Below, one piece after another: positions 30,425-35,366 of a stretch of DNA of 64,000 nucleotides (positions within the stretch are counted from its first letter, which is position 1; every line of letters begins with the position of its first letter). The notes under the pieces were generated by a model. The model was not told the origin of the DNA and did not search any database. It saw only the letters and a program-made list of their open reading frames with translations. The translations under genes were made by a program, and so were the position numbers. Source of the DNA: Marinobacterium sp. LSUCC0821. Its GTDB lineage: Bacteria; Pseudomonadota; Gammaproteobacteria; Pseudomonadales; Balneatricaceae. The stretch lies in contig NZ_CP051666.1 in NCBI RefSeq assembly GCF_012848475.1, positions 333,501 to 397,500 on the forward strand, read 5' to 3'.

Positions 30425-31117
30425 TTAGCTCTTAGAGTAGAGGCGCTCAGGTCGGCCTACAGTGCCGTAATTTATATCAGCCCTTAGCTCATTGAGACCT
30501 GCCAAAAACTCTAGGTAGCGTCTTGCGGTTGTCCGGCTGGATCCAATCTTCTCTCCAACCTGTTCTGCACTTAAAGGGTGAGATGTATTTGCAAAGGTTG
30601 CCCGAATCTTGTCTAAGGTGATCTGGTCGATACCCTTAGGTAGTCTTGGATTTTTTGACTCTTCTTGGGTGTTGTTTCTGTTGCGAGGTAATAGTCTATC
30701 TACCTCTTTTTGTGAGAGTTCTTGTGAGCTGTTTAGACTTGTGACGTGCTCTTTGTACTGTGTTAGTGCCTGTTCTAGACGGTCAAATACCAAAGGCTTT
30801 AACACGTAATCGAATACACCAAGACGAAGTGCTTCAGAGAGGCTATCCACCTCTTTTGCAGCGGTGATCATGATGACATCGGTATTCATATCGCCGGTTC
30901 GTAATGATCTGAGAAGATCCAGTCCATTCCCGTCTGGGAAGTGAATATCGAGTAACACAAGCTGGGGCTGAAATACCTCAAGCATATCTTTAGCATCGCG
31001 GGTCGAATGGCTGATGCCGACCACTTCAAACCCCTCAACGCGCTCAACAAAACGGCGCTGTATCTCAGCAATCTGAGGATCGTCTTCAGCTATCATCAAA
31101 CGTATAGGCGTGCTCAT
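30425..31117 (-). CDS. CitB/DcuR-type response regulator
   Basis: 230 residues: receiver domain (about 5-120) with acidic pocket EDD at 11-13, phospho-acceptor Asp57 (LVLLDIHFPDGNG) and Lys in DYVLKPL; then a C-terminal helix-turn-helix (about 170-225) with LSAEQVGEKIGSSRTTARRYL. This is the architecture of CitB/DcuR/MalR regulators of carboxylate uptake. The four-base overlap with the kinase upstream and the neighbouring tctCBA suggest it senses a carboxylate and activates the transporter. Confidence 0.92.
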   Translation of the reverse strand: MSTPIRLMIAEDDPQIAEIQRRFVERVEGFEVVGISHSTRDAKDMLEVFQPQLVLLDIHFPDGNGLDLLRSLRTGDMNTDVIMITAAKEVDSLSEALRLGVFDYVLKPLVFDRLEQALTQYKEHVTSLNSSQELSQKEVDRLLPRNRNNTQEESKNPRLPKGIDQITLDKIRATFANTSHPLSAEQVGEKIGSSRTTARRYLEFLAGLNELRADINYGTVGRPERLYSKS

Positions 31118-32697
31118 GATGGGATCCTCGGTAGATAAACGGTAAATCGGCTGCCACCGGTGCTGATATGTTCGATGGTGAGCTGTCCATTCAAAGTGGA
31201 AATGGTTTCAGATACAAGGAATAGGCCGATGCCACGTCCTTCACCTTTGCTACTGACACCTGATTTAACAATCTCTTCAATCTGTTCTGGAGCAATGCCA
31301 ATACCATCATCCTCAACTTCGATAACGATCTCTGAACCGATATCGGTCATCGATAGGCGAACCTCGTCAGAGTTGTTGGCAAGTGATGCTTCCAAGGCGT
31401 TATCGATCAGGTTGCCGATAATAGTCACCAGTTGTTGTGCTTCAATTCGCTCTGGAAGGTCGCCTAGATGAGATTCTCGGTCGATCTCAAGGGATAAGCC
31501 TAGCTCACTGGCGCGATTGAATTTGCCCAATATGCAGCCAGCAACCACCGGATCAGTTACAGAGTCTTTTAGCCACTCAAGAAGCGCTTGGTGCTCTGCA
31601 GTCTCCTGGCCAATTAGGTCAAGTGCCTCCTGCTTTGCCCCAAGGCTGATAAGCCCGGCAATCGTGTGAAGTTTGTTTGCATACTCATGTGCTTGGGTAC
31701 GAAGAGCTTCTGCGTATTGGCGAATTCGGGTGAGTTTACGGCTCACTTCGGTCAGCTCATCTTTGGGGCGGAAACTGGCTACTACACCGACTAGTTGCTC
31801 ATCACGAATAATGGGTAGGCGGTTGATGATAATGTGTCGACCGTTAACCAGTGTCTCTCGGTCATACTCTGGTTCACCCGTATCGAGCAGGGCGAGCATG
31901 CGTGAATCGGGCAGTACCTGATTGAGCGGTCTGCCGGCTAGGTCTTCAATTTCAAGCCCTAGGGTATTGATTGCAGCGCGGTTAAAGGTGGTGATAATCC
32001 CTTGAGCATTGATCGCAATGACGCCTTCGCGAATCGATTCAAGCGTTGCGTTTCGTTCTAAGAAGAGAGTGGCGATCTGGTGTGGTTCTAAGTCAAAGAT
32101 AGCTGCGCGGAAACGGCGAGCGATCCACGTCGCTAATAGAATCGAAATGATAAGCAATGCCAGCGTAGCGATAATGACGGTGCGTTGATATGCAGCAACG
32201 GTCTCATCAATTTCAGTTGTTAGGTAGCCAACCGATACGACGCCGACCACAAGGCCACGATCATCAAAAACGGGGGTTTTGCCACGAATTGACTCCCCTA
32301 AGCTACCTACCGCTTTTGATATGTAGCTCTCACCAAGCTCAAGGGCGCGGTAGTTGTCACCGCCTACCATCGGTTTCCCTATGCGCTCTGGAATAGGGTG
32401 GACAAGTCGTATCCCTTGTCGGTCTCCGATGGAGATAAAGCTTGCGTCTGTCGCAAGGCGTAAATCCGCAACGATTGTCTGCACTGTCTGTGAGTCGCTG
32501 TTGGCCACGGCGTCGCGAATAGATGGGGTTTGCGAAATCATAGAGGAGAGTTGCAGAGCGCGTTGCCCGATCTGCTCTTCCAGAGAATTGGCAAAATAGC
32601 GCAGTGTGAAGAAGCCCAAAACCAGTGCTTGCGTTAGGATCAGCAGACTCACCAGAAGGGTTAGGCGGGTACTGATTTTTAGTCGAGGTGTCTTCAT
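31114..32697 (-). CDS. CitA/DcuS-type sensor histidine kinase
   Basis: 527 residues. Membrane helices at about 13-33 and 173-193 enclose a periplasmic PAS-like (Cache) carboxylate-sensing domain that contains IGDRQGIRLVHPIPERIGKP and VVGVVSVGY. A cytoplasmic PAS (about 215-315) follows, then the family's H-box around His337 (RTQAHEYANKLHTIAGL) and an ATPase domain with DNALEAS, VEDDGIGI and GEGRGIGLFLV. The HEYxNKLH box marks the CitA/DcuS/MalK family, which bind citrate, C4-dicarboxylates or malate. Convergent to tctCBA. Confidence 0.93.
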   Translation of the reverse strand: MKTPRLKISTRLTLLVSLLILTQALVLGFFTLRYFANSLEEQIGQRALQLSSMISQTPSIRDAVANSDSQTVQTIVADLRLATDASFISIGDRQGIRLVHPIPERIGKPMVGGDNYRALELGESYISKAVGSLGESIRGKTPVFDDRGLVVGVVSVGYLTTEIDETVAAYQRTVIIATLALLIISILLATWIARRFRAAIFDLEPHQIATLFLERNATLESIREGVIAINAQGIITTFNRAAINTLGLEIEDLAGRPLNQVLPDSRMLALLDTGEPEYDRETLVNGRHIIINRLPIIRDEQLVGVVASFRPKDELTEVSRKLTRIRQYAEALRTQAHEYANKLHTIAGLISLGAKQEALDLIGQETAEHQALLEWLKDSVTDPVVAGCILGKFNRASELGLSLEIDRESHLGDLPERIEAQQLVTIIGNLIDNALEASLANNSDEVRLSMTDIGSEIVIEVEDDGIGIAPEQIEEIVKSGVSSKGEGRGIGLFLVSETISTLNGQLTIEHISTGGSRFTVYLPRIPS

Positions 32698-32773: not shown

Positions 32774-32802
32774 TTGAGGAATGGAGGATAAAAGCGTATA
32801 AT
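32774..32802 (+). promoter_or_regulatory. Sigma-70 promoter of thrS
   Basis: TTGAGG (32774-32779), a 17-base spacer and a perfect TATAAT (32797-32802). Predicted start is about 32809, giving a leader of about 84 bases that holds the operator hairpins. Confidence 0.8.
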
Positions 32803-32820: not shown

Positions 32821-32868
32821 TGTGCCTTGCACAATGATTTAGCTTAAGTGGCCTTTGGTAGGGGTCAC
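32821..32868 (+). promoter_or_regulatory. thrS translational operator mimicking tRNA-Thr
   Basis: Two hairpins lie in the thrS leader. The first is TGTGC-CTT-GCACA (32821-32833). The second has a 7-pair stem, 32848-32854 with 32862-32868 (two G-U pairs), around the seven-base loop TTGGTAG. This loop has U33-like T, the threonine anticodon GGU (32857-32859) and a purine after it, almost identical to the TTGGTAA loop of tRNA-Thr(GGU). It sits 34-36 bases before the ATG. In E. coli, ThrRS binds an anticodon-like leader hairpin at a similar place to block its own translation. Autoregulation here is inferred. Confidence 0.75.
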
Positions 32869-32892
32869 CACTGAGAACTAGGATTTGCATTA

Positions 32893-34809
32893 ATGCCTGT
32901 TATTACCCTCCCTGATTCAAGTAAACGCGAATTTGCTGCGCCATTGTCTGTATTTGATTTGGCAATGGATATCGGTCCTGGCCTTGCTAAGGCGACCCTT
33001 GCTGGTCGTGTAAATGGCGAGCTAGTTGACGCCTCTTTCGTTATCGAATCAGACGCAGATGTATCACTTATCACCGCCCGCGATGAAGAGGGTGTGGATA
33101 TTATTCGCCACTCAACAGCTCACCTTATGGCGATGGCTGTTCAGGATCTATTCCCAGGCGCACAGGTGACTATCGGTCCTGTTATAGAAAACGGTTTCTA
33201 CTACGACTTCGCTTACGAGCGCCCATTCACTCCCGAAGATCTCGAGAAGATCGAAAAGCGTATGAATGAGCTTGCTAAAGCTGCGCTACCCGTTGAACGC
33301 TCTGTGATGAGCCGTCCTGACGCAATTGCGATGTTCGAGAAGATGGGTGAGAAGTACAAGGTAGAGATCATTGACTCTATCCCAGGTACTGAAGATCTAT
33401 CTTTCTACAAGCAGGGTGATTTCATCGACCTATGTCGTGGCCCACACGTGCCAAATACTAGTCACCTGAAAGTGTTTAAGCTGATGAAGGTTGCTGGCGC
33501 ATACTGGCGTGGCGATGTGAAGAACGAACAGCTTACTCGTGTTTACGGTACAGCTTGGGGCGATAAGAAGGATCTTAAAGAGTACCTGCACCGTCTTGAA
33601 GAGGCTGAGAAGCGTGACCACCGCAAACTGGGTAAACAGCTAAACCTATTCCACCTTCAGGAAGAGGCACCAGGTATGGTGTTCTGGCATCCAAATGGTT
33701 GGACGCTTTGGCAGGCTGTTGAGCAGTACATGCGTACTGAGCAGCGTAAGCGCGGCTACCTAGAGATCAAAACCCCACAGGTTGTAGAACGCACCCTTTG
33801 GGAGAAGTCAGGTCACTGGGATAAGTTCCAAGAGCAGATGTTCACAACTCACTCAGAGAGCCGTGACTTTGCCGTTAAGCCGATGAACTGCCCATGTCAC
33901 ATTCAGGTATTTAACCAGGGTCTGCGCTCATACCGTGACCTACCTTTGCGTATGGCTGAGTTTGGCTCATGTCACCGTAACGAACCTTCAGGTGCACTGC
34001 ACGGTATCATGCGTGTGCGCGGCTTTGTTCAGGATGACGGTCACACCTTCTGTGCGGAAGACTCAATCCAGACTGAAGTGGCTGAATTTATTGATTTCTT
34101 GCACTCTGTATATGCAGATTTTGGTTTCAGCGACATCATCTACAAACTATCTACTCGTCCAGAACAGCGTGTTGGTTCTGATGAAGTTTGGGATAAAGCT
34201 GAAAAAGCACTGGCGGATGCACTTGATGCTGCTAATTTGGATTGGGAAGAGCTACCAGGTGAAGGTGCCTTCTACGGTCCTAAGATCGAGTTCTCGCTAC
34301 GTGACTGTCTAGGTCGTGTTTGGCAGTGTGGTACGATTCAGGTCGACTTCTCTATGCCAGGCCGTCTTGATGCACAGTTTGTGAATGAGAAGGGCGATCG
34401 TGAAACACCGGTAATGTTGCACCGTGCAATCCTCGGTTCGTTCGAGCGATTCATTGGTATTTTGATTGAACACTACGCTGGTGCGCTACCAACTTGGTTG
34501 TCGCCAGTACAGGTTGCAGTGATGAATATCACTGATAAACAGGCTGATTTTGTCAACGAAGTTGTAGGTAAGCTACAAAATTCGGGCGTTCGAGCTGTCT
34601 CGGACTTGAGAAATGAGAAGATCGGCTTTAAAATCCGCGAGCGCACTCTGCAGAAAATCCCATATCTTTTGGTAATTGGCGATAAAGAGGTCGAAACCGG
34701 CTGTGTTGCTGTACGCACACGCACAGGTGAAGATTTGGGTGTAATGAGTGTAGAAAACTTTGCTAACTTGTTGATTTCAGACATTAATCGCAAAGGTCGC
34801 GGCGAGTAA
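32893..34809 (+). CDS. thrS: Threonyl-tRNA synthetase
   Basis: Class II synthetase charging tRNA-Thr. 638 residues: N-terminal TGS domain (about 1-62), editing domain with [16 protein letters not shown], catalytic core with [10 protein letters not shown] (zinc Cys) and motif 2 [15 protein letters not shown], motif 3 with [18 protein letters not shown], and a C-terminal anticodon-binding domain (about 535-638). ATG 32893 is preceded by AGGA at 9 bases. Head of the thrS-infC-rpmI-rplT cluster and probably regulated by its leader hairpin. Confidence 0.98.
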
Positions 34810-34829
34810 ACGCTTTAGGAGAAATAGCT

Positions 34830-35366
34830 ATCAAGCGTGATAACAAACAGGGTGGACGTAAGAACCTCCCCCCTATTAATGAAAATATTCGTGCTCGTGA
34901 GTGTCGTCTAATCGGCGCTGACGGTCAGCAAATTGGGGTTGTGTCGATTCAGGAAGCACTTCGTGCTGCTGAAGAGGCAGAGTTGGATCTGGTTCAGATC
35001 TCCGACTCCGACCCAATCGTATGTAAGGTGATGGACTACGGTAAGCACCTATACGATCAGAAAAAACGTGCAAATGAGGCTAAGAAAAAACAGACTCAGA
35101 TGCAGGTTAAAGAGATCAAGTTCCGTCCAGGGACTGATGTGGGGGATTATCAGGTAAAACTACGCAACCTGATACGTTTCCTAGAAGGTGGAGACAAAAC
35201 CAAGATCACTATCCGCTTCCGCGGTCGTGAAATGGCGCACCAGGAGCTCGGAATGGAGCTTCTAAATCGAGTTGAGGCTGATTTGACAGACTACGGTACT
35301 GTTGAAGCGCGTCCTAAACTTGAAGGTCGCCAGATGGTCATGGTGATTGCTCCTAAGAAAAAGTAG
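34830..35366 (+). CDS. infC: Translation initiation factor IF-3, ATC start codon
   Basis: Binds the 30S subunit and rejects poor start codons. 178 residues: N-domain with [20 protein letters not shown], lysine-rich linker, C-domain [20 protein letters not shown] and [13 protein letters not shown]. The frame has no ATG, GTG or TTG before a GTG at 34941, which would remove the conserved N-domain. ATC at 34830 has AGGAG at 34817-34821, eight bases upstream, and begins [12 protein letters not shown] like related IF-3 proteins. Rare ATT/ATC starts are known in infC and allow IF-3 to repress its own translation. Confidence 0.93.

Follow-up and report, generated by a model that had tools for sequence, protein, structure and literature searches.

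A tRNA-Thr anticodon-arm mimic in the thrS leader of Marinobacterium sp. LSUCC0821, a very probable homologue of domain 2 of the Escherichia coli thrS operator

In E. coli K-12, the sequence TGTA-T-GTGATCT-TTCGTGT-GGGTCAC-CAC-TGCA before thrS is domain 2 of the published operator. This operator imitates the anticodon arm of tRNA-Thr and is bound by threonyl-tRNA synthetase (ThrRS), whose N-terminal region then keeps the 30S subunit out and with which tRNA-Thr competes; altering the anticodon-like triplet passes control to MetRS, and the acceptor arm is replaced by a second mimic of the anticodon stem (PMC7373986, PMC9976931). Free ThrRS binds two hairpins, and the ribosome-binding site is bipartite (PMC3858243). 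In yeast, AspRS and HisRS bind an anticodon-like element in their own mRNAs (PMC6542539, PMC9976931). In the open-access literature searched, we found the thrS element described for E. coli alone; an earlier mention elsewhere may exist.

We analyzed a 64,000-nucleotide stretch of DNA (the window) from Marinobacterium sp. LSUCC0821, whose genome comprises 2.36 Mb in a single contig. The open reading frame at 32893–34809 on the plus strand encodes a 638-residue ThrRS, and its best PDB matches were bacterial ThrRS chains. The protein is complete and runs collinearly with E. coli ThrRS from residue 1 through the C-terminal domain, with 379 identical positions in the alignment; the N-terminal domains and the anticodon-binding domain are both present. 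The gene order is thrS-infC-rpmI-rplT-pheS-pheT, as downstream of thrS in E. coli, with names past thrS taken from the translations. The start of infC is apparently non-standard: AGGAG is followed by ATC AAG CGT, with ATC at 34830 (window 34817–34832) and no ATG, GTG or TTG at the expected position, reminiscent of E. coli infC, which starts at AUU. Upstream, a two-component pair (30425–32697, minus strand) diverges from thrS and was read from the translations as a sensor kinase-like protein of 527 residues and a response regulator-like protein of 230 residues.

The gap between the divergent frame, which starts at 32697, and thrS is 195 nt long and contains a promoter-like site and the hairpin described here. 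The first-pass annotation had placed the leader downstream of a good sigma-70 promoter, and a consensus scan did find TTGAGG-17-TATAAT at 32774–32802 on the plus strand (10 of 12 matches), although 0.8 (about one) such sites are expected by chance. A Shine-Dalgarno sequence, AGGA, can be read at 32880–32883 on the same strand.

Direct reading of the sequence confirmed the proposed plus-strand hairpin at 32848–32868, GTGGCCT-TTGGTAG-GGGTCAC, which resembles an anticodon arm. Its 5' stem (GTGGCCT, 32848–32854) and 3' stem (GGGTCAC, 32862–32868) form seven pairs, two of them G.U, around the seven-base loop TTGGTAG (32855–32861), and 24 nt separate its end from the thrS ATG at 32893. A threonine anticodon, GGU, occupies positions 34–36 of the loop (32857–32859, plus strand), its G and U corresponding to G35 and U36; as annotated, it lies at −36 to −34 relative to the ATG. 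The likeness to the tRNA-Thr loop also held within the genome itself, since its own tRNA-Thr(GGU) arm is CACCC-TTGGTAA-GGGTG and six of the seven loop bases equal those of the mimic. Only one hairpin in the 64-kb window combines a TTGGTA loop with at least seven pairs. The covariance model that we refer to as R1 matched a larger element at 32843–32875 on the plus strand, the putative homologue of domain 2 (E 1.4e-11), consisting of an outer helix CTTA/TGAG, an internal loop A/CAC, the inner 7-bp stem and the 7-nt loop. This was the only significant match in the genome; the runner-up had an E value of 1.2.

Folding was less informative: the hairpin is readable, but the fold of the single leader sequence was not significant (z −1.0 to +1.7), and the minimum-energy structure shrinks the loop to a GGU triloop. 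The significance of the hairpin comes from its conservation among relatives and not from folding energy. Counting the window, five members of the genus have an assembled thrS leader, and the element is present in each of them. Across the genus, family, order and a set of named genomes, a consensus block, [outer helix]-N-GTGGCCT-NUNGUAN-GGGTCAC-CAC-TGAG, was found at a near-constant distance from the ATG. Of 214 distinct leaders, 145 had a structural score of at least 10, compared with 0.14% of shuffled leaders; the scoring scheme rewards a GU in the loop.

Covariation was assessed on 62 distinct 33-mers aligned without gaps. Changes on both sides occurred in 10 of 11 pairs and in 58 cells, compared with 18.1 in shuffled and 3–15 in slid controls. 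RNAalifold recovered the 7-bp stem and the 7-nt loop unaided, with compensatory changes in all seven inner pairs; the outer helix was weaker, with 75% of cells paired, yet it too covaried. In three Psychrobacter leaders (L171, L176 and L180) and in L128, the stem is wholly swapped to ATGATTG/CAATCAT. All four nevertheless retain UGGU in the loop, 33–35 nt before the ATG, and the CACTG flank; in Psychrobacter the complete loop reads ATGGTTG. The element is a conserved, covarying counterpart of domain 2 in E. coli, and this homology is what places it with the E. coli thrS operator.

We then considered the loop. To avoid circularity, hairpins were selected blind to it, with the stem, the CNC internal loop and the next T as the sole criteria. 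All 110 distinct hairpins obtained in this way carry G35-U36, whereas position 34 was G in 50, C in 49, A in 9 and U in 2; U33 was present in 94 and A37 in 100. Such NGU triplets are the anticodons of threonine. The alignment of relatives, which the first-pass annotation had set as a test that could refute it, thus came out in its favor, with covariation at all pairs of the stem and an invariant G35-U36. The GGU-type loop of the window is a common form and not a special one, G and C being about equally frequent at position 34. An invariant G35-U36 with a free position 34 fits recognition of these two bases that ignores the wobble base.

The isoacceptor repertoire did not account for the choice of this base. 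Covariance-model searches and ARAGORN gave 50 tRNA matches in the window's genome, among them tRNA-Thr with GGU and UGU but none with CGU. Relatives in the genus carry CGU loops. A search with a strict pattern for tRNA-Thr(CGU), which may miss some genes, gave matches in only 15 of the 114 genomes of the family and in no genus member. The idea that the loop anticodon tracks the isoacceptors was therefore not supported, since CGU loops occur in genus relatives lacking a tRNA-Thr(CGU) match.

In the family, R1 matched 87 of 114 genomes at 1e-3 (90 of 114 at E up to 0.1); in the order it matched 173 of 245, and in the class 127 of 370. These fractions are lower bounds for degenerate forms, given the strict filters, and are not independent of the training set, which drew on part of the same taxa. 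In a sample of the phylum, 66 of 299 genomes matched, every one within the same class. The hairpin is missing or degenerate in some members of the family and order, and no recognizable copy was seen in betaproteobacterial, Legionella or Methylococcales leaders of the named-genome set. Fifty of 52 checked R1 loci sit immediately before thrS. A match elsewhere (L261), antisense within a long reading frame whose translation resembles comEC, was deemed false. Another (L262, about 2001–2033; G616:C18:33393–33425) is a good copy of the operator followed by only an 11-codon reading frame and no thrS; a different contig of its genome carries a further copy that does precede thrS, and the L262 copy is apparently either a relic or a stand-alone RNA. 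About a dozen family genomes encode a second full-length ThrRS only 48–56% identical to that of the window (for example, G028:C11:314631–316508, G083:C208:4744–6621, G087:C3:19227–21104 and G078:C3:101268–103145), and R1 gave no significant match beside these second copies. Rfam 15 contains no model that matches the window element, and on the E. coli thrS leader it returned Phe_leader only and nothing for the operator.

A second, smaller hairpin upstream had been taken to make the leader bipartite. Such a hairpin, TGTGC-CTT-GCACA, does exist at 32821–32833 on the plus strand, in the sequence and in folds, but its role is doubtful: its CUU triloop contains no anticodon for threonine, and other members of the genus show unrelated hairpins or sequences at this place. 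We set it aside as an anticodon-like domain 4 of the window, and the bipartite role is left unsupported. No second mimic was recognizable in the leaders of the window or its genus by a scan that likewise fails to pick up the second hairpin published for E. coli; with that caveat, the sequence of the window is best read as containing one recognizable mimic.

Relatives differ in this respect. In about 33 of 75 family leaders, a further mimic lies some 75–90 nt before the ATG, with a loop of the YUGGUUU type and a stem that covaries; the automatic scan gave 35, but the ones in L010 and L029 look fortuitous (L029 has a clear one elsewhere). In the leaders of family f8 (L042, L043, L044, L045, L047, L050 and L133), three mimics stand in tandem in the last 170 nt before thrS, with UGU, CGU and GGU loops in the case of L042. 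Two further leaders, L104 and L144, have the domain-2-like hairpin in two tandem copies, with two CGU loops in the former and GGU followed by AGU in the latter; the second copy seems to have arisen by local duplication and to take the place of the upstream hairpin.

Taken together, the sequence comparisons make it very probable that the window element is a thrS translational operator, orthologous to domain 2 in E. coli. The main interpretation of the first-pass annotation was supported by the covarying stem and by the match to the hairpin in the E. coli leader, and its placing of such mimicry outside the enterobacteria was correct; autorepression by ThrRS would follow by analogy. From the demonstration in E. 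coli, we infer that ThrRS binding, repression and feedback by tRNA operate in this organism as well. Free ThrRS would recognize the GGU loop and the stem in its own mRNA as it does the anticodon arm of tRNA-Thr, and an ample supply of tRNA-Thr, compared with that of the enzyme, would compete ThrRS away and let translation resume.

We weighed this reading against three others. The hairpin is located where translation initiation is controlled and could be kept because it stabilizes the mRNA, serves as a standby or S1 landing structure or binds another protein, its likeness to a threonine anticodon loop being incidental. However, position 34 varies and G35-U36 never does, as threonine identity predicts; the whole stem is replaceable with the NGU loop retained, as in Psychrobacter; and the same element is found in E. 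coli, where ThrRS binding is published. We consider this explanation improbable.

The remaining two have hardly any likelihood. A structured leader in front of an aminoacyl-tRNA synthetase gene might suggest a transcription attenuator or a T-box-like element that senses threonine or tRNA-Thr, but the leader contains no terminator-like site and has no Rfam match, so that the T-box combination of a threonine-codon specifier loop, an antiterminator and a terminator is not seen. Its triplet, GGU, is an anticodon and not a threonine codon (ACN), and so would not pair with the anticodon of tRNA-Thr as a T-box specifier does. The notion of a decayed tRNA-Thr gene draws on several other lineages in which a tRNA gene lies immediately upstream of thrS; no tRNA match was obtained at the site, however, and the covarying stem together with the conserved internal loop and outer helix indicates an element under selection and not one in decay.

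With the translational operator as the preferred reading, a broader picture can be drawn, to which we give about an even chance. The thrS operator may be an old control element in a large part of the Gammaproteobacteria, in which the number of mimics varies from one to three and the wobble base drifts freely, independently of the isoacceptors; the window would then hold an operator with a single mimic, able to function without the second anticodon arm that the E. coli model includes. This comparative picture of wide distribution, free wobble base and one to three mimics, drawn from sequence, may be new within the literature searched. A textbook case of tRNA mimicry, confined to E. coli in that literature, can now be traced over many gammaproteobacterial families, where the element covaries strongly and its loop signature agrees with the identity rules of ThrRS. 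Loops of the GGU, CGU, AGU and UGU types, leaders with one to three mimics and stems replaced outright are natural variants for testing how ThrRS reads its operator, and the covariance model, absent from Rfam 15, could be used for annotation.

Among the known systems, the yeast AspRS and HisRS mimics are comparable only by analogy, being eukaryotic, unrelated in sequence and different in site and mode of repression. The two- and three-hairpin thrS leaders of relatives share with the window the domain 2 block before thrS; unlike the window, many Nitrincolaceae leaders add the YUGGUUU-type hairpin, and those of family f8 carry three mimics. The E. coli operator differs from the window in its loop triplet (CGU, compared with GGU) and its outer helix (TGTA/TGCA, compared with CTTA/TGAG), and its model includes a second anticodon mimic, none being recognizable in the window leader. 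Domain 2 itself is closely alike in the two: just upstream of the thrS Shine-Dalgarno sequence, both have a 7-bp stem, a 7-nt U-NGU-N loop, the identical 3' arm GGGTCAC, the CAC internal loop and an outer helix.
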